From Planctomycetota bacterium (lineage in GTDB: Bacteria; Planctomycetota; Phycisphaerae; UBA1845), in NCBI GenBank assembly GCA_024278695.1, contig JAJRSR010000129.1, positions 1 through 36,793 of the forward strand: a stretch of 36,793 nt of DNA. Reading direction: 5' to 3'. Positions 3 through 32,542 of the stretch are shown piece by piece. The number at the start of each line of letters is the position of its first letter. Within the stretch, counting starts at the first letter, position 1. Under the pieces are notes generated by a model that saw only the letters and a program-made list of their open reading frames with translations, was not told the origin of the DNA and did not search any database. The translations under genes were made by a program, and so were the position numbers.

Positions 3-2780
3 GGGTTCGACCGGGCGATCGGTTTTGACATGGGCGGCACCAGCACCGACGTGTGCCGCATCGACAAAGATGGCGATCTCGACTACCAACACGAAACCGT
101 CAAGACCGGCGTGCGAATCATGACACCCATGCTGGCGATCGAAACGGTGGCCGCTGGCGGCGGTAGCGTGTGCGGTTTCGACGGGCAAAAACTCGTCGTC
201 GGACCGCACAGCGCAGGCTCCGATCCGGGCCCAGCCTGCTACGGACGCGGTGGGCCACTGACCGTCACCGATATGAACGTTCACCTCGGGCGCGTCGTGA
301 GCGCGTTTTTCCCCTTCCCGCTCGATCGAAAAGCTACAGACACCAAGCTGCGTTCCCTCGCAGATGAAGTCAACTTGACCACACTATCCCGCCTCTCCCC
401 GACCGATCTCGCGGCTGGCTTTCTCGACATCGCCAACGCGAACATGGCCGCCGCCATCCGGAGCATCTCCGTCGCCAAAGGCTACGACGTGCGCGATTAC
501 GTCCTCACCGCCTTCGGCGGTGCCGGCGCGCAACACGCCTGTGCCATCGCAAGACTCCTAGGCATGACGCAAGTGCTCTGCCACCCCTGCGCCGGCGTAC
601 TCAGCGCGCTTGGGATCACCGTGGCCCACGTCAAGCGTATCGCCGAGCGCAGCGTACAACACCCGCTCAACAACGACTCCCTGTCCTGTGTAGCACCAAT
701 TTTCGATGAGCTAGGCCACGAGCTGACAACCGCACTCATTGGCGACGGCGTATCAAGAAACGCTATCGCAGCGCCGGTGCGATCGGTCGATCTTTGCTAC
801 ACCGGACAGTCCACCCGGCTCCCCGTCCCGCTGCAATCCGCTAGCGTCATGCGTGATGCCTTCGAACGGCAACACAAGCGGCTCTACGGCTACATCCACG
901 CGAATCGCGATATCGAAATTCGTACGATTCGCGTCGAATGCGCCGACACGACCCCCGCGATGCGTGACCATTCAAGCCCATTACCGAGCACCACCAAAAC
1001 CGCGCGAACCACCCCCATGCTCGTCGATGGCTGCATGACCGAGGTGCCGGTGCTTTTGCGATCTGAACTTCTAGCCGGCCAATGCGTCAGCGGACCGGCC
1101 ATCATCGTCGAGCCGACCAGCACCATCGTGATCGACAACGGTTGGGAGGCGACGGTCCGCACTTCCGGCGAGGTGATTCTGCAAGACCAAGAAACCATGC
1201 CGCACCAAGCAGCGGCATCAACCGAAACGGATCCGATTCAACTAGAGTTGTTCAACAATCGTTTCGCCAGCGTGGCCGAACAGATGGGCGTCACGCTTCG
1301 GCGCACGGCACTATCCACCAACGTCAAGGAGCGGCTGGACTATTCGTGCGCCGTGTTTACGGCAAAGGGGGAGCTTGTGGTCAACGCACCGCACATCCCC
1401 GTGCATCTCGGCGGCATGAGCGATTGCGTCAAGTGCCTGCGCGAGGACGTCGAGACGTTTGAGCCTGGTGACGTTTACGTCACGAATGATCCCTACCGCG
1501 GCGGCTCGCACCTCAACGACATCACCGTCATCACACCCGTACATCATGCGTCGGGTGAGCGCGTGCTTTTCTTCGTGGCCAGCCGCGCTCATCACGCGGA
1601 GATCGGTGGAACCAGGCCGGGTTCCATGCCGCCGGACTCGACCAATCTCGCTGAGGAGGGCGTGCTCATCCAAACGTTCCGATGGATGAAACGCGGCACC
1701 GCTCAAACCGACGCCCTGCTTGCGATTCTGACTGCCCCACCTTATCCCTCACGATGCCCCTCCGACAACCTGGCCGACATCACCGCGCAGGTCGCGGCCA
1801 ACCAGACCGGCGTACGTGAGCTTTTGTCTTTGATGGCCCTTTACGGCACGGGTGTCGTCACTGCCTACATGCGCCATATTCAAAACGCCGCAGAGGCAAA
1901 GATGCGTACGACGCTCGGCAAACACCCAGACGGTATGCGTCAGTTTTCAGGCACGCTTGACGACGGTGCCACCATCCGCCTTGGGATCACGGTCAACGGT
2001 AACGCTGCGACGTTCGATTTCACCGGCACGGACCCCGTACTCGCTGGCAACCTCAACGCCAACCGTGCGATCGTGACCAGCGCAGTGCTCTACTGCCTTC
2101 GATGTCTGATCGGTGAGGAGATCCCGCTCAACGCCGGCATGCTCGCGCCCGTTGAGATCATCCTACCGGAGTGCTTTCTCAACCCCACCGCCCGGCAAGA
2201 CGCAGCCGATTGCCCCGCCATCGTCGGCGGCAATGTTGAAACATCGCAGCGCGTGGTCGATACGATCTTCGGCGCGCTGGGCATCGTGGCCGCAAGCCAG
2301 GGCACGATGAACAACCTGCTCATCGGGGATGCCACGTTCGGCTACTACGAGACCATCTGCGGCGGGACCGGCGCGGGACCAAGTTTTCACGGAACCGACG
2401 CCGTGCATTCACACATGACCAACACCCGGCTCACCGATCCGGAAGTGTTGGAGTCGCGCTACCCGGTCCGGTTGGTTCGTTTCGCGATCCGACACGGTTC
2501 CGGCGGAAACGGCGAATTCAAAGGCGGTTGCGGCGTGATTCGCGAGATTGAGTTCCTTCGCCCGCTCGATGTCTCCATCCTCTCGCAGCGAAGAACGACC
2601 AGCCCCTACGGCCTATGCGGCGGCGAACCCGGAGCCTCCGGGAGAAATCTATTGCGGCGGGCCGATAGTGACGATGAAAAGCGACTCGCTCCGGTCGTAC
2701 ACCTCAACGTGTCGTCCGGCGATCGGATCACCATTGAGACGCCCGGCGGCGGCGGATGGGGGCACGTGGCGAACAGCTAG
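3..2780 (+). CDS. 5-oxoprolinase / N-methylhydantoinase-like HyuA-HyuB single-chain protein (5' end outside window)
   Basis: Frame is open from base 3 (GFDRAIGFDMGGTSTDV...). The HyuA motif GFDMGGTSTDV and DPGPACYGRGGPLTVTDMN are followed by HyuB hallmarks (FNNRFASVAEQMGVTLRRTALSTNVKERLDYSCAVF, IPVHLGGM, VTNDPYRGGSHLNDITV, HHAEIGG). The N-terminal ~280 aa of HyuA would lie upstream. Confidence 0.93.
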   Translation, partial: GFDRAIGFDMGGTSTDVCRIDKDGDLDYQHETVKTGVRIMTPMLAIETVAAGGGSVCGFDGQKLVVGPHSAGSDPGPACYGRGGPLTVTDMNVHLGRVVSAFFPFPLDRKATDTKLRSLADEVNLTTLSRLSPTDLAAGFLDIANANMAAAIRSISVAKGYDVRDYVLTAFGGAGAQHACAIARLLGMTQVLCHPCAGVLSALGITVAHVKRIAERSVQHPLNNDSLSCVAPIFDELGHELTTALIGDGVSRNAIAAPVRSVDLCYTGQSTRLPVPLQSASVMRDAFERQHKRLYGYIHANRDIEIRTIRVECADTTPAMRDHSSPLPSTTKTARTTPMLVDGCMTEVPVLLRSELLAGQCVSGPAIIVEPTSTIVIDNGWEATVRTSGEVILQDQETMPHQAAASTETDPIQLELFNNRFASVAEQMGVTLRRTALSTNVKERLDYSCAVFTAKGELVVNAPHIPVHLGGMSDCVKCLREDVETFEPGDVYVTNDPYRGGSHLNDITVITPVHHASGERVLFFVASRAHHAEIGGTRPGSMPPDSTNLAEEGVLIQTFRWMKRGTAQTDALLAILTAPPYPSRCPSDNLADITAQVAANQTGVRELLSLMALYGTGVVTAYMRHIQNAAEAKMRTTLGKHPDGMRQFSGTLDDGATIRLGITVNGNAATFDFTGTDPVLAGNLNANRAIVTSAVLYCLRCLIGEEIPLNAGMLAPVEIILPECFLNPTARQDAADCPAIVGGNVETSQRVVDTIFGALGIVAASQGTMNNLLIGDATFGYYETICGGTGAGPSFHGTDAVHSHMTNTRLTDPEVLESRYPVRLVRFAIRHGSGGNGEFKGGCGVIREIEFLRPLDVSILSQRRTTSPYGLCGGEPGASGRNLLRRADSDDEKRLAPVVHLNVSSGDRITIETPGGGGWGHVANS

Positions 2781-2830
2781 ACCGAAAGGCCAACAGGCAT
2801 GCATCACGAGCATCGCAGGATGAACACCAC

Positions 2831-4621
2831 ATGAGCGCCCGGATTACCTCCATCGAAAACCTCATCACAAGAGACCCGGGTGGCCGCCACATCTTTGAGC
2901 TGATGCTCACGGATCAATTGCGGCTTGCTGCACTTTCGCTGCGCCTCGCGCGTCGCGTCGGCATCGTCAGCGGTTTCTATGTGCCCGAGGCTTCTGCCGC
3001 AGAGACCGATGGACCGCCGGGAGCCAAGGCACTGGGCAACGCGCTGCAATCGCTAGGCGTGGCCGTGGACTACATCACCGATTCGTGGTGCGCTCCAGCA
3101 TTTCGTGCGATCGGTATGGAGCCGCTAATCGAGCCGGACAACTACATCACCACAACCAACCCGAGCCACCTTGTTTCGATCGAGCGGCTTGGCCGGGCCA
3201 TCGACGGGCGCTACCACAACATGCGCGGGACCGACGTCACCGAGACCACAGCACCGCTCGACGGCCTATTCCTGGAAGCGCGCCGGGCCGGGCTCACAAC
3301 AATCGGTATCGGAGACGGCGGCAACGAGATCGGCATGGGACGGGTCTTCGCGGCCACCTGCGCGAACGTGTCGCACGGCAAGCAGATCGCGTCACTCGTT
3401 TCAACGGACTTCTGCATCGCCTCGGGCGTATCGAACTGGGGGGCGTATGGGCTGGCCGGCGCGCTCTCTGTCCTTGCCGGTCGAGACCTGCTCCCAAGCC
3501 CGGACGAGGCAGCAGACGTGGTACGCGCGGTCGTTCGTGATGGCGGCGCGGTAGACGGCGTGACGCTGCGCCGCGAGGCCACCGTCGATGGGATCGCACT
3601 ATCGGAAAGCATCGCCACGTTGGAAAGCATTCGAGCGCAGATCGCCCCACCACCGCTGGCAGACAAGTCCCCACAATGTGTCGGCATTTTGGGATACGGC
3701 GAAACTGGTCGCGCGGCCGCACGCCTGCTCGCACAGCGCGGTCACAAGGTGCGCGTCTCGGATAGCGGCAGCGTCGCGATTGAGGCAGGGCTCGTGTTCG
3801 AGGGCGTCGAAACCGGCAAGCACACGATCGAATTCCTGAAAAGTTGCGATGTCGTCGTGGCCAGCCCCGGCGTACGCCCGGACCACGCGATCCGCGACGC
3901 GCTACACCAACAAGCCGTGCCGGTCATGAGCGAACTGGAGATGGCCTATCAACTCTGTAACCGTGACATCATCGCCGTCACCGGCAGTGTCGGTAAGCGT
4001 GCCACCATCGAGCAGATACAACGGCTCTTCACCACGGCCAACCGCAAGCTGCCCATCGGCGGCAACCGGGGCTTACCGCTCTCGGCCTTGCTATTGGAGG
4101 GTGTCAGTGACGAGCCGCTGGCGCTTGCGGTATCCAGTTTTCAGTTGGAAACGATTGTGGGCTTTCGACCAAGGGTGGCCGTGATTCTCAATCTCGACGA
4201 CGCGCACCTCGATCGGCACGAAACGATCGCGGAGTATGTCCGGATCAAGAGCCGTGTCTTTATGAACCAGGGATACGCACCGAGCACCGTTCAGATGTCA
4301 AAACCCACCCCCAGCGGGGCCGACCTCCTGGTGCTACCGTTTGACGATGAGCGTCTGCGGGCGTTGTCGCGCAAACATCACGGGCAAACCCTCTTCGTCT
4401 CATCGCGGCAATCGATCGATCGAGGCGCGTGGGTTGATGGAGACACCATCGCGCTCAACATCGACGGCGATCTCGAACGAATCAACGTCGACCCACAGGA
4501 TTTGGGCAGCGACGCCGTGAATCTCCTTTCGGCCGTGATCGTGGCGCGGGCTTACGGAATCAGCAGCGAAGCGATTGCGGCATGCCTACGTGAAGAAACT
4601 TCAGCGAAGGTCATACGGTGA
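2831..4621 (+). CDS. DUF4392 (D-glutamate cyclase C-terminal family) domain fused to MurD-like N-terminal and central domains
   Basis: ORF track starts at 2756, but ATG 2831 (MSARITSIENL) is the likelier start. N-terminal half has SGFYVPEASAAETDGPPGAKALGNAL and TIGIGDGGNEIGMG (DUF4392). C-terminal half has a MurD-type Rossmann segment (VGILGYGETGRAAARLLAQRGHKVRVSD, VVASPGVRPDHAI), TGSVGKRAT at the P-loop position, SSFQLE, and VILNLDDAHLDRHETIAEYVRIKSRVF. Confidence 0.88.
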   Translation: MSARITSIENLITRDPGGRHIFELMLTDQLRLAALSLRLARRVGIVSGFYVPEASAAETDGPPGAKALGNALQSLGVAVDYITDSWCAPAFRAIGMEPLIEPDNYITTTNPSHLVSIERLGRAIDGRYHNMRGTDVTETTAPLDGLFLEARRAGLTTIGIGDGGNEIGMGRVFAATCANVSHGKQIASLVSTDFCIASGVSNWGAYGLAGALSVLAGRDLLPSPDEAADVVRAVVRDGGAVDGVTLRREATVDGIALSESIATLESIRAQIAPPPLADKSPQCVGILGYGETGRAAARLLAQRGHKVRVSDSGSVAIEAGLVFEGVETGKHTIEFLKSCDVVVASPGVRPDHAIRDALHQQAVPVMSELEMAYQLCNRDIIAVTGSVGKRATIEQIQRLFTTANRKLPIGGNRGLPLSALLLEGVSDEPLALAVSSFQLETIVGFRPRVAVILNLDDAHLDRHETIAEYVRIKSRVFMNQGYAPSTVQMSKPTPSGADLLVLPFDDERLRALSRKHHGQTLFVSSRQSIDRGAWVDGDTIALNIDGDLERINVDPQDLGSDAVNLLSAVIVARAYGISSEAIAACLREETSAKVIR

Positions 4622-5442
4622 CGCCGCACGAATTGGCTAGCGCTTCCCCTCAGCAAGTTCGCACGGCATGTCGAACCGGCACGTTCGATGGCCCCACGGC
4701 CGGGCTCGCCCCGGGATTCGCGCAAGCCAACCTCGTCGTGCTACCCGCGGACTTGGCCGACGACTTCCGGCAATTCTGTGCCAACAACCCAAAGCCTTGC
4801 CCGGTCTTGGAAATCACGAAACCCGGCAGCCCCGAACCAGTACGATTCGCCCCTGGTGCCGACCTTCGCACCGACCTACCACGTTATCGCATGTTTGAGC
4901 ATGGGGTGTGCGTCGCCCGAACCACCTCCGTCGAAGACCATTGGCCGATCGGTGCAGACCTTGTGGCCTTCCTGCTCGGATGCTCGTTCACTTTCGAACG
5001 TGCCCTGATCGACGCGGGTGTACCCGTGCGTCACATCGAAGAAAACCGCAATGTCCCGATGTACCGCACCAACATCGAATGCGAACCATCGGAGGTTTTC
5101 TCCGGCCCACTTGTCGTTTCCATGCGTCCCATGACGAGGGAGCACGCTAAGAGCGCCACGACAATCACGGCCCGATTCGCCCGCGTCCACGGCGCACCGG
5201 TACACGTCGGACGCCCCGGAGAACAGCACAGCCGCGATTTGGGCATCCCCGACCTGTCCGCACCGGACTACGGAGACGCCGTCACGATCCATCCCGATGA
5301 GGTGCCGGTCTTTTGGGCGTGTGGCGTCACGCCGATGGAGGCAATCGCCCGCGCGCAACCGGCTTTCGCGATCACCCATGAACCCGGACACATGTTCATC
5401 ACAGACGTTCGAGATTCCAAACTGCGTGATCCTGGTGCATAA
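4618..5442 (+). CDS. DUF1445 / YcsI family putative hydro-lyase (D-glutamate cyclase N-terminal family)
   Basis: GTG start overlaps the upstream stop (GTGA). Family signatures: GPTAGLAPGFAQANLVVLP, FCANNPKPCPVLE, RTDLPRYRMF, FLLGCSFTFERALIDAGVPVRHIE, NVPMYRTNI, GPLVVSMRPM, VHGAPVHVG, PDYGDAVTI, EVPVFWACGVTPMEA, AITHEPGHMFITD. Confidence 0.93.
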   Translation: MTPHELASASPQQVRTACRTGTFDGPTAGLAPGFAQANLVVLPADLADDFRQFCANNPKPCPVLEITKPGSPEPVRFAPGADLRTDLPRYRMFEHGVCVARTTSVEDHWPIGADLVAFLLGCSFTFERALIDAGVPVRHIEENRNVPMYRTNIECEPSEVFSGPLVVSMRPMTREHAKSATTITARFARVHGAPVHVGRPGEQHSRDLGIPDLSAPDYGDAVTIHPDEVPVFWACGVTPMEAIARAQPAFAITHEPGHMFITDVRDSKLRDPGA

Positions 5443-5462: not shown

Positions 5463-6317
5463 CTACGGCGTAGGGGATTTCGGCGGCGCCGGTTTTGATG
5501 ACGGCTGTTGCGGCGACGTGTTGTACGCAACGGTAACGATCGCCTGCGCATCCCCGATAAGCATTCCGATGGCGGCCGGCCTATCGTACTCCGACAGCGG
5601 AGCGCGAATATGGAAGTCCGAAACCGGCATGACCAGCTCCACCGATCGGAGCAGGGGCAACTTCGACGTCGAAATCTGTTTCGCAAGCGCCTTGGGCACC
5701 GTAACCCGAACTGCGGCCGCCTCGCTGGCGACCAGCCGTTCCAACGCAGCGGGCTCAAACCGGTCCCGCAACATCCAAATTCGGTCGCCGATCTCGTCGA
5801 TCGCCTCGTGGTGGCGTTGGATGATATCTCTCTTGATCTCGGTGCCGTCGGTCAGCTTTTTCATCCCTTTTTGGTGGCGAGCATGCATCGCGCGAATCGC
5901 TGCCTTCAGTTCGTCGATCTGTTTCTTTTCGTCGCGCGTATAGAAGTTTTCTGAGTTTCCACGACGAACGGCCGTGGTTCCGCGAAGAACCAACGCCCCA
6001 GAGGGTTGCACTTTGGCGCTATTGACCAGCAGGAAAAATGTGACCGGACGGTCGAAGCCTCGCGCGCGACGCACAGCGGCGCGAAGCCCATCGTAATCGT
6101 CAAGCCTTTTTCCCGAGAGCTTCCCATACCACTTTTCAAGATCACCAAGCGCTACGCCGGAAGCATTCTGCCATACCGCAGGATTGGCATCTTTCGCGCG
6201 GATCACGGCGTCAGCCGTCGCAACGGCAAGCCGAAGCTCGCGGTGCTTCACAGGCGGGGGTGCCAGTGGCACGATCGCAGCCATGGCCACGGTTACTGCT
6301 AATGCGGTACTCATCAT
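5463..6317 (-). CDS. Hypothetical secreted protein
   Basis: 284-aa ORF with signal-like N-terminus (MMSTALAVTVAMAAIVPLAPPP) and SD-like GAGGATGC upstream. No family recognised. Confidence 0.6.
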   Translation of the reverse strand: MMSTALAVTVAMAAIVPLAPPPVKHRELRLAVATADAVIRAKDANPAVWQNASGVALGDLEKWYGKLSGKRLDDYDGLRAAVRRARGFDRPVTFFLLVNSAKVQPSGALVLRGTTAVRRGNSENFYTRDEKKQIDELKAAIRAMHARHQKGMKKLTDGTEIKRDIIQRHHEAIDEIGDRIWMLRDRFEPAALERLVASEAAAVRVTVPKALAKQISTSKLPLLRSVELVMPVSDFHIRAPLSEYDRPAAIGMLIGDAQAIVTVAYNTSPQQPSSKPAPPKSPTP

Positions 6318-18224: not shown

Positions 18225-21200
18225 ATGGGTTCACTGCGACATCATTCCACGTGCATTTTCTTATGCGTTCTCGTCGCTGGCTTGTGTTCATCATCTGCGG
18301 GTGCAGCTACCATCTTCGTTGACGCGTCAGCCAACGGTGCCGTGCAAAACGGATCAAGTTGGTGCGCGGGATACCTGAATCTTCAAGACGCCCTGGCGGC
18401 AGCATTGTTCGGGGATGAGGTGCGGGTCGCTAACGGAACATACAGACCGGACCAAGGTGATACCGTTGTTGCCGGTGACCGTCTGGCGTCGTTCGGCCTG
18501 CTTTCCGGTGTTGCACTTCGTGGTGGGTATGCGGGCTGCGGTGCGATTGATCCCGACGCGCGAAATCTCGCATTGTATACAACAACGCTCAGCGGTGATT
18601 TGACCGGGAACGACGCTCCCGCATACGCAAACCGATCAGATAACAGCTACCACGTCGTCACCTATAACGACCCGAATGCAATTGATTCCGTGTTGGACGG
18701 GTTCACGGTGAGCGGCGGTTATGCGGATGGTACCGGACCGGCCGGCATCGCTTCCAACCAGGGCTCAGGTATCCATATCCGCCTTGATTCACAAATGTGC
18801 ATTCCCGGTGGTCCGACGATTCGCAATTGCACTGTAGAAGACAACTGGTCGGCCCATCACGGTGCAATCAACATCCATGCCGACCAAGCCCTCATCGACA
18901 ACTGCACGATTCGCAACAACTATAGTGATTTTCGCGGCGGCGGGCTGCTAATCCAAAGCGGCAACGCCACGGTTCGCAATTGCGTGATTACCAATAATTT
19001 CGCAAAAGATGAGGGCGGAGGCATCTGGACCGGGCACAGTGCCGATCCGACTTGCGCTGTTACAAGCGGCGCGCTGTTTGAAAACTGCACAATCAATGAC
19101 AACATGACCGACCTCAACGGCGGCGGTTTCTTCGCTGGCGATCTCAGTTCGTCCATCATCTCAAATTGCATCTTGGAAAGAAACGTAGCAGGCTTTCAAG
19201 GTGGAGGCCTGCATTTGGAGGATGGTCCCATCACGGTCACTGATTCGACCTTTCTCGATAACGCCGGGGGGGCTGGCGATCAAGCAGCGACCCTCGCGGG
19301 TGGCGGTGGCGCATGGTTGAACTGCCGCAGACAGGGATTTGAAGCCGTGTTGAGTGACTGCACCTTCCGGGGCAACGCCACCAGCATGCTACTCGGGCGC
19401 GGCGGCGGCCTCCAATCGAGTTCCACCAGCGTCTTGCGAGTAACTCGCAGTTTGTTCGAAAACAATCTGGGAGGCAGCGGTTCCGGAATTTGGTATGGCG
19501 GCCGAACAGTCGTGACGGACTCGATGTTTCTCGGCAACCAAGCCCGAGCCCTTGGCGGTGGTCTCTCCTCGGACAGCAATGGCGATCTCACGATGAGCCG
19601 CACGATAGTCTCCAACAACATCATTCTCGAAAATGTGGCCGGCGGCGGCGGTGCCGGGCTGGCCGTGTACGGAGGCTCTCTGAAGATCGCAAACTGTTGG
19701 TTCGTGGGAAACCACGAGATCAGTGACCTCAGCCTTGGCTACGGCTGTGGGGGTGTGTTGGTCAACGCCAGGGCGATTGCTGAAATCAGCAACTCCGTTT
19801 TCCTCGGCAACTTCGCGCACGCTGGCGGCGGATTGTGCGTCAACAATTTTTCCGAAGCACTTGTTACAAATTGCACATTCGCTCAGAACACGTCAACGAT
19901 TGACGGTGCCGGGATTCTCACCTTCAGGTCTGTGCTAACCGTCGTCAATTCCATTCTCTGGAACATACTCAACAACCAAGTTGGCGAGATGTTTACGATC
20001 CGCAGCTCCGTGGAGGAGCCAGCCAATCCGGCCGACGTGGTGGTTGAATCCACTTGCATCCAGGGCGGCTGGAGCGGCGTTGGGAACGACAACATCGACA
20101 TCGATCCCGGTTTCATGAACGTCTTAGGCCTCGACGGTATTCCTGGAACGCTCGATGACGATGTCCGATTGCAATACGATTCTCCCTGCGTTGATGCTGG
20201 CGATAATGCAGGGGTCCCGCTTGATGCCACCGACTTGGACGGTGACGGCGATACGTCGGAGCCCGTCTCAGTAGACCTGAACGAGAACCCACGTATGGTC
20301 GGCGCAGCGATTGATATGGGAGCCTACGAACGTGAGGACTGCAACAACAACGGCATCCCTGACAACGATGACATTCTTGCCGGAACCAGCGAAGACTGTG
20401 ACGGTAACGGCGTTCCGGATGAGTGTGACCCGGACTGCAACGCCAACGGCGTCACGGATGGCTGCGACCCAGACCGCGATGCAGACGGCACCATCGACGA
20501 TTGTGATCTCTGCCCCGATGACAGTTCCAAACTAGAACCGGGCGTGTGCGGCTGCGGTATTCCAGATGTTGATTCGGACAGTGACACCGTATTGGATTGC
20601 CTTGACGCCTGCCCCGGCGCGGACGATCTTGTGGATACCGACGGTGACGGGACTGCCGATGGATGCGATCCTTGCGACGCCACAGACACCACCCTCGATT
20701 GTAACCGCAACGGCTACTCCGATCCGTGCGAAGTCTTAGATGGCGTGGCTGTGGACCTGGACGGCAACAACGTGCCTGACGAGTGCGACTTCATGCCTAC
20801 CGCCGTGACTGAAGGCTGCCGGGCTCTTGGTGCGACACCCGCGCCAGGCACGGAAGCCGTTGCCTTGCGTCTCACCTCGCAGGACATGCTATGCCTGAAT
20901 CAGTTCGTCACGGAGAACGGTCAACTGTCAGACGCACCGACATTCCAAACGCCGACCGCGTGGGGCACCGTCGTGATTGTCGATCCGAACATCGTTCCCG
21001 ACATCTTGTATGTCCTAACATCCGAGTTCAAGGGCGGTGCTATCTCGGCCGGCGCGTGGGTTGCTTCAGCGCCCTGGGGCGACGTGGTGGGGAATGATCC
21101 GGGGAGTCTACCCGATGGCGTGGCCAACTTCCGGGACATCTCGGCATCGGTGGCATGCTTCCTAAATGACCCCGACGCACCGCCGATTTACCGCTGCGAC

Positions 21201-21305
21201 ATAGCCCCGGCCATCCCAGATGGCCAGGCAAACTTCGAAGATATTTCATCTGCCGTGGAAGGGTTTCTTCAAACCCCTTACTCGCTATCAACACCATGCC
21301 CGTAA
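18225..21305 (+). CDS. Secreted right-handed parallel beta-helix repeat protein with Ca-binding (DxNGxxDxCD) repeats and C-terminal EF-hand/dockerin-like module
   Basis: Signal peptide (CIFLCVLVAGLCSSSAGA). Repeating N-x-A-x-x-G-G-G-L / I-x-N-C-x-I pattern, then EDCNNNGIPDND...DCDGNGVPDECDPDCNANGVTDGCD...DTDGDGTADGCD...NRNGYSDPCE and two ANF-DIS repeats. SD AGGGAGAG before ATG. Confidence 0.87.
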   Translation: MGSLRHHSTCIFLCVLVAGLCSSSAGAATIFVDASANGAVQNGSSWCAGYLNLQDALAAALFGDEVRVANGTYRPDQGDTVVAGDRLASFGLLSGVALRGGYAGCGAIDPDARNLALYTTTLSGDLTGNDAPAYANRSDNSYHVVTYNDPNAIDSVLDGFTVSGGYADGTGPAGIASNQGSGIHIRLDSQMCIPGGPTIRNCTVEDNWSAHHGAINIHADQALIDNCTIRNNYSDFRGGGLLIQSGNATVRNCVITNNFAKDEGGGIWTGHSADPTCAVTSGALFENCTINDNMTDLNGGGFFAGDLSSSIISNCILERNVAGFQGGGLHLEDGPITVTDSTFLDNAGGAGDQAATLAGGGGAWLNCRRQGFEAVLSDCTFRGNATSMLLGRGGGLQSSSTSVLRVTRSLFENNLGGSGSGIWYGGRTVVTDSMFLGNQARALGGGLSSDSNGDLTMSRTIVSNNIILENVAGGGGAGLAVYGGSLKIANCWFVGNHEISDLSLGYGCGGVLVNARAIAEISNSVFLGNFAHAGGGLCVNNFSEALVTNCTFAQNTSTIDGAGILTFRSVLTVVNSILWNILNNQVGEMFTIRSSVEEPANPADVVVESTCIQGGWSGVGNDNIDIDPGFMNVLGLDGIPGTLDDDVRLQYDSPCVDAGDNAGVPLDATDLDGDGDTSEPVSVDLNENPRMVGAAIDMGAYEREDCNNNGIPDNDDILAGTSEDCDGNGVPDECDPDCNANGVTDGCDPDRDADGTIDDCDLCPDDSSKLEPGVCGCGIPDVDSDSDTVLDCLDACPGADDLVDTDGDGTADGCDPCDATDTTLDCNRNGYSDPCEVLDGVAVDLDGNNVPDECDFMPTAVTEGCRALGATPAPGTEAVALRLTSQDMLCLNQFVTENGQLSDAPTFQTPTAWGTVVIVDPNIVPDILYVLTSEFKGGAISAGAWVASAPWGDVVGNDPGSLPDGVANFRDISASVACFLNDPDAPPIYRCDIAPAIPDGQANFEDISSAVEGFLQTPYSLSTPCP

Positions 21306-27267: not shown

Positions 27268-30200
27268 TTATGCCCCAGAGAACGAAGGAAACGCCAGCTC
27301 CTCCTGCTCGGACTGGATGATGATCTTTGGCTTGATTAGGATGAGCAGGGTCTGCTCGTCCTTGATCATCGTGCGCGACGAGTACGCGCGTTTGAGCAAC
27401 GGAATCTTGGAGAGCACCGGCACGCCGGCTTCCACTTCGGTCTCGCTGGCAAGCTTCTGGCCACCGATTAACAAGGTACCGCCGTCAGGCACTGAGACCG
27501 TCGTCTGCACGCGCTGACTGGACAGCGTCGGCAACTGAATGAACGCCGCAAGCGCCGTGCCACCACCAAACCCACCGCCCGCACCACCACCGCTGAACGG
27601 AATCGTCTGCAAGTCCAGCAAACGGGTGAGACCGGGTCGCAGCGTCATGGTCACGTACCGTTTGTCAGCCGTAACGGTGGCGTTCACATCGAGCACGGCA
27701 CCAGAATCGATCGTACCGGTCTGCGGAGCCTGAGCCACCGCTCCCGTTGCGACAACCGGGTTAAGCGTGCTCACGAAATTCTGCTGGACAGTCACCGCTA
27801 CCCAAGATCGCTGACCATTAAAAAGCACCAGACGCGGGGCCGTAAGCACCGACGTCCGCGAATCGGCTTGTGTCGCCCGAATCAGGAAGTCAACCTGGAT
27901 GTTATCAAGGAAGCTCCCAAAAATGCTGAGAGCCGGTCCAACCGTGGTGCCGGCAAAGCTACCAGGAATATCACTACCGAGGTTGGCGGGATCAGTGTAG
28001 CCCAGGGTGTTGCCAGAAATCGGAATCGGCGTTCCCCGGCCACCACTCCCACCGGAAAAACCAGGCGTCAGGTAAGGCTGCCCAAACGGCTGGTTGATGA
28101 CACCGTTCGGTGTAGCCATCGCGGTTCCCAGCCCCGGGGTGTTTGGAACGAAACCAAGCCGCGAGAACGATCTCGGAAGAAGCAGGTTGCTACCCAGGAC
28201 AGGGTCTGTCAGCGCGCCGCCGCCATCAGATGGAACGAAATCGAAACCGGCACTGCCCGAGTTCAAGACAATATCAAGATCAATACCCATCTCTTCCAGG
28301 TAGTGACTGGACACGGTGATAAAACGCGCATCAACGGCAATCTGAACCGCCCGTTGCTCACGAAGTTTCCCCAACAGACTGCTGATTTTCTGCTGGCCCG
28401 CCGAGTTCTGCGTGATGACAAGCTGACCGTTGAACTCGTCAATCGTGCCGATCGAACCGCCACGCCCCTTCCAGCTATTCGGGAAAACGTTTTCCTGCAA
28501 GAGGTCGATAATCTGACGAACGCGATCACGCCGCCCAGGATCCTCTTCACGCTCGTCATCGTCGTCGTCACCATAGAGCCACGGACGTTGCTGAGCCTCA
28601 GTCGTGGCGGCGGCCTGAGCCAAACGGTTCGCATCGCGAAGATCCATCAGCGGCGCGTCATTAAAAACGGGGATTTCCATCAACAGGTCGCTGATGTCGT
28701 AGACGGCTTGGTACGTCTCATGATCGAGCGTATCCTGGGTCGCTACCTTGATAACGCCATCGCTCAAGGCATAGCCCACGGCCACCTCGCCGCCGCCAGC
28801 CTGTTCAAGTACCTCCGTTAGCGCCTTCCGCAAAGAGATTTCCCCGGGAAGTCGCAAGTCAATAATGGCGTCAGCATCCACACCGGCACGTTTTAGGTCG
28901 TGCCAGTTCACTATGATCGGCAGCCGATTCGCAGTTGCCAACTCTTCCATGACATCGCCGAACGTCGCATCAGCGAACTGTACCGTCGTGTCCTGGTCCA
29001 GCGCGGAGATGAGACGGCGGTTCCGCGAAACGCCCGGTCCCTGCCGCTCGGGGCGGACAATCATCTCTCGCCAGTTGTCAGGATAACGAAGCTCCTCATG
29101 CCACGGAATCTTCGCCTCCTCGACCCCCTGAAGCACGCGCTGCGTCTCGGCGTAAAGCGCATCCCGCAACTCACGACTGCGCCTCATATCGCGTCGTTCG
29201 ACCAACTCATCGGTTAGCCAGCGAGCACTTTGGTTGCGTGGGTCAATAACGCTAACTTGACGAAGAATGTTGATGGCCGCGTCCAGGTCACCGTCTTTAC
29301 GATGCTGGATCGCCTGTGCCATAAGGCTTGCGACCTGCCGCGCTCGATCCTGCGCGTCCTGCTCCAATCTTTCTCGGCGTTCATCCTCGACCGCGCGTCG
29401 CGTCTCGGCCACCACACGCTCGTTGTAGTCACGGGCACGTTGTTCCACGCTCGCAGAGAGCGTTTCGTACTCATCACGCAGGCTATCATACTTCGATAGC
29501 GGGTCGGCGAATTGCTTCCCAGACTCAATCACTTGCCCAGCCCGAATCAACAGTTGCCTGCAGCGGTCAAACCGCTCACCATCAACTTCAGCGTTAATTG
29601 CTAACTCCACATCGCGATACTCTGCGACGGTGCGTTGCCAGTTGATCCGATCCTCACGGCGAATCTGGTCGATTAATGATTCCGCACGTGTTCCCGACGC
29701 ATTAATTTGAGCGTCCCGGACACGCGAAAGACCATCTACGGCCTCTGGAAATCCAGCAACCATCGACAGCGCTTCGGAAAACAGGCGCTCTGCCTGCGAG
29801 TAACGGCCGGCATCAAAAGCATCGTTCGCTTCAGCAGTGAGCGTGCGCGCCCGATCCACGTCAGATGTCGTCATCGGTACGTCATCAGCAGGCTCATTCG
29901 TCTGCGCAACAAGCTGAACACGGGCACCTCTTGCAGCATCGTTGCGCCTGCCCCGCGCACCATCGAGAAGCGTTTCAGCCGCCGAGCTAACTTGCGGCGA
30001 CACATAATCGTTAGCTAAGACGCCACGAAGCAGTCGTGTCGCCGCAGCGTGATCGTCGGACGCGAGAGCCGTCTGCGCATCTTCAAGATCACGCACGCCC
30101 TTCTCCTGCATCGTGATCGCCACTTGCACACGGTTGAGGTATTCGTCACGGCGCATTTGATCGGCTCGCGATAGTTGTGATCGATCAACACTGACGAGTA

Positions 30201-30354
30201 GCTCCTGCGCAGCGAAGTATTCGCCCGCCTCAAACATCGCCACGGACCGGTGAAGCGCATCACCTTCATCAGCACGCACGACGCCAGCTGGCATCACCAC
30301 CAAGAGTGCCACGGCAACAAACGCGACCCTCACAGGTATCTTGAAGCTATTCAA
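27268..30354 (-). CDS. Secretin (type II secretion / type IV pilus) with N-terminal TPR-like region
   Basis: TTG start with SD GAGGAGGAG; signal peptide ending VVRA. N-domain ATFGDVMEELATANRLPIIVNW...LRKALTEVLEQ. Secretin core VRQIIDLLQENV, AVQIAVDARFITVSSHYLEEMGID, VPDGGTLLIGGQ, GVPVLSKIPLLKRAYSSR, LLILIKPKIIIQ. Confidence 0.9.
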   Translation of the reverse strand: MNSFKIPVRVAFVAVALLVVMPAGVVRADEGDALHRSVAMFEAGEYFAAQELLVSVDRSQLSRADQMRRDEYLNRVQVAITMQEKGVRDLEDAQTALASDDHAAATRLLRGVLANDYVSPQVSSAAETLLDGARGRRNDAARGARVQLVAQTNEPADDVPMTTSDVDRARTLTAEANDAFDAGRYSQAERLFSEALSMVAGFPEAVDGLSRVRDAQINASGTRAESLIDQIRREDRINWQRTVAEYRDVELAINAEVDGERFDRCRQLLIRAGQVIESGKQFADPLSKYDSLRDEYETLSASVEQRARDYNERVVAETRRAVEDERRERLEQDAQDRARQVASLMAQAIQHRKDGDLDAAINILRQVSVIDPRNQSARWLTDELVERRDMRRSRELRDALYAETQRVLQGVEEAKIPWHEELRYPDNWREMIVRPERQGPGVSRNRRLISALDQDTTVQFADATFGDVMEELATANRLPIIVNWHDLKRAGVDADAIIDLRLPGEISLRKALTEVLEQAGGGEVAVGYALSDGVIKVATQDTLDHETYQAVYDISDLLMEIPVFNDAPLMDLRDANRLAQAAATTEAQQRPWLYGDDDDDEREEDPGRRDRVRQIIDLLQENVFPNSWKGRGGSIGTIDEFNGQLVITQNSAGQQKISSLLGKLREQRAVQIAVDARFITVSSHYLEEMGIDLDIVLNSGSAGFDFVPSDGGGALTDPVLGSNLLLPRSFSRLGFVPNTPGLGTAMATPNGVINQPFGQPYLTPGFSGGSGGRGTPIPISGNTLGYTDPANLGSDIPGSFAGTTVGPALSIFGSFLDNIQVDFLIRATQADSRTSVLTAPRLVLFNGQRSWVAVTVQQNFVSTLNPVVATGAVAQAPQTGTIDSGAVLDVNATVTADKRYVTMTLRPGLTRLLDLQTIPFSGGGAGGGFGGGTALAAFIQLPTLSSQRVQTTVSVPDGGTLLIGGQKLASETEVEAGVPVLSKIPLLKRAYSSRTMIKDEQTLLILIKPKIIIQSEQEELAFPSFSGA

Positions 30355-30676: not shown

Positions 30677-32542
30677 CTATTTACTTGGCTTCCACTTTCG
30701 ACTCTGTGCCGCCCGTAGGCTCGGATCGTCCTTGTCAATAGGCAAGAACCGCTCTGAGAGCGTCCCGCTCGAGTCCACTAGCGCCACAGCACAGGCCCCC
30801 TTGGTGCGACCTCCGAAACGAACGCCTTCACGGCCGCCACCCCGCTTACGGTCCCGAAATGGGCGGTCAAAATCAACATCTAACAGAATGGCGTCGCTGT
30901 GAAAATCTACCAACGCAAGATCCGCCACCAAAGGATCCTCCAAGTCGGGGACTTCGACACGAACCTCGCCGGCTACCGCATCACCAACGGCAAGCTGAAG
31001 CTTGCGTGATTCGACCCAAACACCTTCATACCATTGGTGAACTCTAAACCCGACCTGGGCGTCCCGCTCATCCTGGCTGACGACGTAATACTCTACATCC
31101 GGGGCCACGACTATCGGATCTGACGGTTCGGACCACTCCCCAGCGACATAGACGCGCTTGGCATCTTCGGGTTCGCGAAATTTTCCCGGATCACCGGCGA
31201 GACGGTTGAAGAACTTCTGTCGAACCCGATACTGATAGGTCTTGCCGCTCTCAACCTGCCCCGGCCTGGCATCATTAACCCACACCTGTTGAAGCGGAAG
31301 CTTTTCTCTTGCTGGTCGCTCCAGGCCGTCGTCATTATCCTCGACTAATTTCTGATCCTGCCCGGCTCGTCGGCGATTTTGCCGCTCGATATCCCTGTAG
31401 AGCTGTTCAGCTTTCGCCTGCAATGTTTTGGCCTTCTGCTTGTCGGTGGGACTGGCCTCTGCATCCCGCATCACCTCGTTGTACATGTTCCGCGCGGACA
31501 TGGCGTCGTTGGGGTTGCTCGTTGCTTTGGCTTGCGCCACTAAGGCGGCCGCGTTCGCAAAAACTTGACGCGCACGGGCTGCCGCATTGTCCGCGGCTTC
31601 TTCATCTCCACCCACGCCACAAAGTCCATAACGATCCTCAGGTTCGGCCGCAGGTGCGTCATTGGGGTAGCTGATTTCGTCGTCTTGTTTGAGCACATCG
31701 TGACAGGTGGTTAGAATCGGGAACGACCACTCGGTGCCATTCTCAATGACAGGGATAAGCGGACGAAGCAACTCAAGCTGCACTTCTGGCTTGCTAAGCC
31801 CATCAACAAAGGCTTCCAAACGATTCAACGTCGCGGGATCGGACTCCACGCGCCCGTCGGCTTGACGAAAATTGATCTCAGGCTCACCCGGCAGCGGAAC
31901 ACCGATACTCCAGGGTCTAACCAGCACCCAATCGTCCTCTGACCAACTCCCGTCTGATCGCTGAGAGCGCCGCTGGGCCTCCGTGGAGCCGTAAATCAGC
32001 TCGGACCGTGTCGCGCCATAAGCCAACCGTTGGCGGCTTGTCTGTTCGCGAACATCAACCAAGGAGGATACCGTGACCCAGTTGGCCGGTACAAAGGCCA
32101 CCCCAGAATCACGCTCGATGGAATAGGTACTGCGTCCATGGGTCACGCGTGGCTTGGGCAATGGCATCACTTCGACGAGCTCATACTGCCCCGCAACCTG
32201 ACCGGCTTTGTCCACAAGGGGCGCAGCAGGGCGAATCGACACCACGGCCGTCCAGGTCTCGCTCTGATCCAACGGTGTGAGTGACGCCGAAAATTCGTCG
32301 ACCAAAGGCTCGGGACTCTCAGTCACAGTGCGTGCATCGCGGATACGTTGGCAAATCCGCTCAGCTTTGGAAGCGATAACGGTATCCAAAGATTGCGGCG
32401 TAACCCGCTGACCATCCAATTCAATCTGGTTGGGAGAAGACACGAGGTACCGCGCAACGGAACCCAGCAGCGCTACCACCGCAACGCCGAGAATCACCTT
32501 TTCTATGTGACGTTCGACCGGACTAACAAGTTGTTTCGCCAT
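30677..32542 (-). CDS. Single-TM protein of unknown function in the PilM/secretin cluster
   Basis: N-terminal TM (VILGVAVVALLGSVARYLV), large extracytoplasmic region including a charged coiled coil. Co-directional between PilM and secretin. SD AAGGGCGAG before ATG. Confidence 0.7.
   Translation of the reverse strand: MAKQLVSPVERHIEKVILGVAVVALLGSVARYLVSSPNQIELDGQRVTPQSLDTVIASKAERICQRIRDARTVTESPEPLVDEFSASLTPLDQSETWTAVVSIRPAAPLVDKAGQVAGQYELVEVMPLPKPRVTHGRSTYSIERDSGVAFVPANWVTVSSLVDVREQTSRQRLAYGATRSELIYGSTEAQRRSQRSDGSWSEDDWVLVRPWSIGVPLPGEPEINFRQADGRVESDPATLNRLEAFVDGLSKPEVQLELLRPLIPVIENGTEWSFPILTTCHDVLKQDDEISYPNDAPAAEPEDRYGLCGVGGDEEAADNAAARARQVFANAAALVAQAKATSNPNDAMSARNMYNEVMRDAEASPTDKQKAKTLQAKAEQLYRDIERQNRRRAGQDQKLVEDNDDGLERPAREKLPLQQVWVNDARPGQVESGKTYQYRVRQKFFNRLAGDPGKFREPEDAKRVYVAGEWSEPSDPIVVAPDVEYYVVSQDERDAQVGFRVHQWYEGVWVESRKLQLAVGDAVAGEVRVEVPDLEDPLVADLALVDFHSDAILLDVDFDRPFRDRKRGGGREGVRFGGRTKGACAVALVDSSGTLSERFLPIDKDDPSLRAAQSRKWKPSK

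Follow-up and report, generated by a model that had tools for sequence, protein, structure and literature searches.

Peptidoglycan synthesis and D-glutamate (D-Glu) metabolism meet at MurD, the ligase that joins D-Glu to UDP-MurNAc-L-Ala (UMA). In MurD, the carbamylated K198 has a role (PMC4816537), and D35, R37, G73, N138, S159 and F161 have been named in inhibitor and uracil sites (PMC3527612). On the supply side, Escherichia coli MurI, which makes D-Glu, requires UMA for activity (PMC12844806). On the removal side, mouse DGLUCY (9030617O03Rik), a multi-domain protein with DUF4392, converts D-Glu to 5-oxo-D-proline (PMC5339696). Here, we describe a gene in which DUF4392 is fused to a truncated MurD. 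It lies on contig JAJRSR010000129.1 of a Planctomycetota genome (GCA_024278695.1; 3.55 Mb, 90.5% complete), whose 36,793 nt, the whole contig, were analysed and are called the window.

In our best reading, the MurD half would be a pocket for UMA that operates without ATP use. We favor such a receptor because this MurD has lost the ATP/Mg ligands and the D-Glu domain, has kept the UDP-MurNAc-Ala cleft, and is fused to a probable D-Glu-removing enzyme. The gene would thus encode a D-Glu-removing enzyme that carries its own gauge of how much cell-wall precursor is available, in which UMA or the MurD product, UDP-MurNAc-L-Ala-D-Glu (UMAG), gates the cyclase. We give this proposal an even chance of being correct.

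Architecture and predicted structure of the fusion

The fusion occupies an uninterrupted open reading frame (ORF), and the ATG at 2831 was taken as its conserved start because homologues begin at a matching Met (Table 1). On the 621-aa ORF, Pfam placed MurD-like_N at residues 309-391 and Mur_ligase_M at residues 408-506, and the MurD-like part as a whole runs from residue 309 to ~613, covering the N-terminal and central domains. The murD model TIGR01087 matched the fusion with an E-value of 2.2e-50 over profile positions 2-300 of 441, scoring below its curated cut-off (172 bits vs 211.95). As the match ends at position 300, the last third of MurD is absent from the fusion.

An AlphaFold2 model of the whole fusion, built with 19 aligned homologues, reached a pLDDT of 85.8 and a pTM of 0.86. 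When the model was compared to the PDB using Foldseek, the MurD half matched MurD 3lk7 (E 8e-22) and the DUF4392 half matched TON_0340 (TMt 0.87). Modelled alone (pLDDT 86.4, pTM 0.85), the MurD half had top PDB matches that were all MurD (TMq 0.70-0.79), with MurC next at ~0.6. The C-terminal half is predicted to have the MurD fold, comprising the N-terminal and central domains. An earlier interpretation made from the letters of the DNA, hereafter the sequence-only reading, had described a MurD-like module with the P-loop TGSVGKRAT and without the D-Glu-binding domain; Pfam, TIGR01087 and the structural comparison that it had suggested agree on the module, the P-loop is present as quoted, and the missing domain is borne out by the profile match and by the homologues described below.

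Table 1. Coordinates of the fusion gene, its domains and key codons, and the adjoining genes
Feature	Position	Strand	Details
Uninterrupted ORF	2756-4621	+	621 aa, single frame
Fusion gene, DUF4392/GLUCM_C + pseudo-MurD	2831..4621	+	596 aa from conserved start
Likely ribosome-binding site (AGGA) of the fusion	2817..2820	+	~10 bases 5' of ATG; read from sequence
GLUCM-like_C (PF14336, formerly DUF4392)	2852..3631	+	ORF aa 33-292; Pfam E 1.8e-78
MurD N-terminal (UDP-binding) domain	3680..3928	+	PF21799 and PF21377 above cut-offs; fold
MurD central domain, degenerate	3977..4594	+	PF08245; TIGR01087 positions up to 300 of 441
Altered P-loop TGSVGKRAT	~3980..4006	+	Arg codon 3998-4000 in place of Walker-A Ser (S116)
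Asn = E. coli N138 (precursor pocket)	4064..4066	+	Conserved in 19/19 fusions
Ala instead of catalytic E157	4127..4129	+	Ala/Ser/Thr in 19/19 fusions
His = H183	4205..4207	+	Conserved in 18/19 fusions
Lys = K198 (carbamylated in MurD)	4247..4249	+	Conserved in 18/19 fusions
HyuA-HyuB type 5-oxoprolinase	30..2780	+	One ORF, 5' part cut by contig start; PF01968 E 5.4e-62, PF02538 E 9.5e-195
DUF1445 D-Glu cyclase-type gene (PF07286 D-Glu_cyclase)	4618..5442	+	E 3.5e-65; GTG start overlaps fusion stop codon (4618-4621)

Residues lost and retained in the MurD half

We aligned 19 fusions, 14 from the window's family, four from Thermodesulfobacteriota and one from another planctomycete (L054), with positions numbered as in the mature E. 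coli MurD protein. The MurD C-terminal domain, with R302, D317, T321, K348 and S415, is missing from every fusion. Walker-A S116 is replaced by Arg in 18 of the 19, and catalytic E157 by Ala, Ser or Thr in all of them; H267 and N268 are also lost, and N271 is mostly retained. S71, P72, G73, G137, N138, S159, N178 and R186 are retained throughout, every fusion has Asp or Glu at the D35 position, and K115, H183 and K198 are each kept in 18. On the basis of MurD structures, we take S116 and E157 to be the ATP-side Mg ligands and the precursor-side residues to line the substrate pocket. When only columns with at least 92% invariance across 36 real MurDs were considered, the fusions kept 4/4 in the N-terminal domain, 9/15 in the central domain and 0/13 in the C-terminal domain. 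As judged from these alignments, the loss of ATP/Mg residues is selective, with precursor-side residues being kept.

Two motifs cited by the sequence-only reading need qualification. SSFQLE is retained but is a poor sign of a kept active site, because E157 lies two residues before it and is Ala here. Decay of the P-loop is conserved as a family-wide change of GK[ST] to GKR, whereas the Ala that follows (Thr to Ala) is specific to the window copy. The conclusion that the module is not a second ligase is strongly supported by the missing C-terminal domain, the substitutions of E157 and S116, and a separate full-length murD, which was sought and found elsewhere in the window's genome, as it was in most fusion genomes searched.

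Between the same genome pairs, mean identity was 59% for the pseudo-MurD half vs 54% for the N-terminal and central domains of the host MurD. Its conservation thus matches that of the essential host MurD in the same genomes, and the pseudo-MurD half is not a decaying relic.

Genes adjoining the putative cyclase and the probable route of D-Glu removal

A cluster of DUF1445, DUF4392 and 5-oxoprolinase genes is present in the window and in most same-family loci. HyuB and/or DUF1445 adjoin the cyclase in most of these loci, with G012 as an exception, and in G024 the complete 1166-aa HyuA-HyuB form lies upstream of the cyclase. In six Spirochaetota loci (L066, L080, L083, L084, L085 and L105), DUF1445-DUF4392 stands beside PxpB and PxpA, accompanied in four by PxpC. 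Since two unrelated 5-oxoprolinases occur beside DUF1445-DUF4392, there is good evidence for a route from D-Glu through 5-oxoproline to glutamate.

The metal residues E59, D61, E115, D157, E161 and D246 of TON_0340 correspond to E83, D85, E143, D187, E191 and D278 of the ORF, and all six acidic residues are invariant in the 19 fusions. By analogy to mouse DGLUCY, the only protein of this kind with known D-Glu cyclase activity, whose other domain we take to be DUF1445, and given the 5-oxoprolinase and DUF1445 neighbours, the DUF4392 half probably removes D-Glu.

The missing C-terminal domain of MurD was also considered as a separate adjacent gene. This was rejected, as the next gene here is DUF1445 and there was no MurD-like gene beside the fusions examined. 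In Thermodesulfobacteriota, a DUF4147-MOFRL gene (glycerate kinase type) lies 3' of the fusions (L048:8862-10283 and L052:2592-3986), and the L052 copy begins before the fusion ORF ends. Elsewhere in the window, large ORFs without a Pfam match are found at 18225-21305 (+, 1026 aa), 30677-32542 (-, 621 aa) and 5463-6317 (-, 284 aa), and the 1028-aa product of 27268-30354 (-) has a secretin domain at its C-terminus and shows weak matches to TPR.

Origin, distribution and natural variants

The fusions have a single origin. In a quick MurD tree with several open branches, the fused halves formed one clade (support 100) apart from host MurDs, so origin from the host's own murD is unsupported. In the DUF4392 tree, the fusions fell in one clade (support 97), together with two proteins that have no MurD part, those of G024 and G038. 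Among 397 sampled genomes of the class, the fusion was found only in the window's family. The simplest history would be that the fusion arose once, passed between phyla, and in some members subsequently lost its MurD part. In G024 (L152:3518-5155), DUF4392 and DUF1445 form one 545-aa ORF without a MurD module, a natural deletion variant, and in G038 (L025/L056), which also lacks the module, DUF1445 lies directly 3' of the cyclase.

Candidate sources of D-Glu in the host genomes

D-Glu supply was surveyed in 51 genomes of the window's family (f1, G000-G050), where a locus was counted as the fusion, the MurD-less variant, or a copy cut by a contig end. MurI scored above cut-off in none of the 17 genomes with the locus vs 11 of the 34 without it (one-sided Fisher 0.006, relatedness ignored). 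There was no MurI match in the window's genome, and MurI was below cut-off or missing in 40 of the 51. A search of family members yielded no MurL; the MurL model matched no control genome, although it does match two proteobacterial loci, L109 and L119. Genes resembling D-amino-acid transaminases are nearly universal in the family, and that of the window's genome scored best against D-amino-acid transaminase models, below their cut-offs. D-Glu in this family presumably comes from such a transaminase. Exclusion of MurI is not general, because two Syntrophobacteraceae genomes with the fusion have MurI.

K348 is present in 8 of 9 host MurDs from fusion genomes, and the MurD2-type residue pair is absent (PMC8788868). 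These enzymes therefore probably use free D-Glu. MurD2-type stereospecificity was rejected for them; position 414 varies across the family.

In L109 (5073-9253) and L119 (4401-8393), both from proteobacterial metagenome-assembled genomes, DUF1445, DUF4392, MurL and a MurD2-type ligase follow in series, with MurL and the ligase forming a single 840-aa ORF in L109. This gene order ties D-Glu cyclase genes to a pathway independent of free D-Glu.

A candidate precursor gauge and its alternatives

In the gauge that we propose, the DUF4392 half would act with the proteins encoded on either side, the 5-oxoprolinase upstream and DUF1445 downstream, to convert D-Glu to 5-oxoproline and then to glutamate. 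The pseudo-MurD, having lost the C-terminal part that would bind D-Glu and close the domains as well as the ATP-side Mg ligands, would keep a cleft for UMA, a MurD substrate that is expected to build up at D-Glu shortage. UMA, or UMAG, bound in this cleft without ATP would switch the cyclase; in the simplest form, the cyclase would be off at high UMA, because UMA should accumulate at D-Glu shortage and should then restrain removal. The Arg at the S116 position might substitute for a Mg ion at the phosphate/carboxylate end of the pocket. The UMA requirement of MurI is a precedent for a gauge of this kind. Which metabolite is bound (UMA or UMAG), in which direction control runs, and that D-Glu is the substrate are all inferences. 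The sequence-only reading had linked a putative UDP-MurNAc-Ala-binding half to D-Glu removal, a proposal that fits the residue pattern and the neighbourhood.

Several observations weigh against the gauge. Uracil-pocket residues T36 and R37 of E. coli MurD are not conserved in the fusions, nor are they in planctomycete MurDs. The MurD half is missing from the locus in two same-family genomes, G024 and G038, and so is dispensable in them. Neither an oxoprolinase nor DUF1445 adjoins the Thermodesulfobacteriota fusions or L054, a real weakness, and the Thermodesulfobacteriota neighbours examined showed no clear pathway. The most decayed fusion, L054 (5806-7788), has the P-loop GRAST, has lost K115, and carries H183 to Ala and K198 to Leu; it is nevertheless in frame and ends at the same truncation point. 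Lastly, the sequence-only reading's assignment of DUF4392 as a D-Glu cyclase fits its presence in DGLUCY, but the activity reported for TON_0340, the one DUF4392 protein assayed alone, was that of a weak Mn phosphatase and not of a cyclase (PMC5132392).

The MurD half could instead be purely structural, holding the cyclase together or docking partners with no small-molecule ligand, as its lost catalytic residues and the genomes that do without it would allow. A pure scaffold would not need pocket residues such as H183, K198 and N138, which are kept across phyla, nor does a scaffold sit well with conservation equal to that of an active host MurD, and we consider this explanation unlikely, though still a serious candidate. 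It is distinctly unlikely that the MurD half presents UMA or UMAG as a substrate to the DUF4392 metal site for hydrolysis or editing. Such a role would suit the two-metal site of TON_0340, with its six invariant acidic residues and weak phosphatase activity (PMC5132392), and the invariance of these residues in fusions that retain the precursor pocket; however, the DUF4392 cavity is described as small (PMC5132392), and MurD-free DUF4392 is widespread and linked to 5-oxoprolinase, so a small substrate, recognised without MurD, would be expected. Local mutation, a frameshift or a decaying pseudogene deserves almost no credence: the window P-loop does have its one extra change, but the truncation is common to all 19 homologues, the MurD half is conserved to the level of host MurD, and the next gene starts inside the fusion stop codon. 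With truncation and motif changes being clade-wide, frameshift, local decay and sequencing error were ruled out.

A role for the locus in replacing MurI or supplying D-Glu appears very doubtful. The absence of MurI from 17/17 same-family genomes with the locus, when 11 of the other 34 have it, the failure to find MurL in the family, and the two proteobacterial loci in which DUF1445-DUF4392 precedes MurL and a MurD2-type ligase all point that way. Set against this are the MurI genes of the Syntrophobacteraceae fusion genomes, which weaken MurI replacement as a general role, 23 MurI-less family genomes without the fusion, a transaminase-like gene that can provide D-Glu, host MurDs that mostly keep K348 without the MurD2-type pair, and the catabolic nature of the neighbours; MurI is also missing from G024 and G038, where the cyclase has no MurD half. 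There is only a slim chance that UDP-MurNAc-L-Ala-(L/D)-Glu in the cleft is itself the substrate, with the fusion standing in for MurI in part of Planctomycetota as, for instance, an epimerase or editing enzyme that needs no ATP; this would be a further route to peptidoglycan D-Glu.

Comparison with known systems

Both folds are already known, and the pairing of pseudo-MurD with DUF4392 appears undescribed. No description of the conserved pairing was found in the literature searched, with most subscription papers outside its scope, and "Mur ligase" was not found paired with "pseudoenzyme" there; DUF4392 itself is mentioned in two papers. If our proposal is true, a core cell-wall ligase has become a receptor for the precursor level that shields the D-Glu pool from its degradation route. 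It would be the removal-side counterpart of UMA control of MurI, in a family where every locus-bearing genome is without MurI, and would show cleanly how an essential enzyme can be converted to a regulatory domain, the natural deletion variant serving as a control.

The fusion resembles MurD in its N-terminal and central fold, its precursor pocket, H183 and K198. It differs in lacking the C-terminal domain, in having Arg for the Walker-A Ser, in the loss of E157, in being joined to DUF4392, and in forming its own clade. With GLUCM-like_C/DUF4392 proteins (PF14336; TON_0340 and part of DGLUCY), it shares the whole domain and all six acidic metal residues, but it ends in a pseudo-MurD, where those proteins stand alone or are joined to DUF1445. 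Linkage of a MurD-like gene to DUF4392 is shared with the MurD2/MurL pathway in L109 and L119, whose ligases, in contrast, have an intact P-loop and, where complete (L109), the C-terminal domain; no MurL turned up in the window's family. With E. coli MurI there is no sequence relation, and the likeness is one of proposed logic, in which UMA reports the need for D-Glu and controls the D-Glu pool, although the fusion would act on removal via a borrowed MurD domain.
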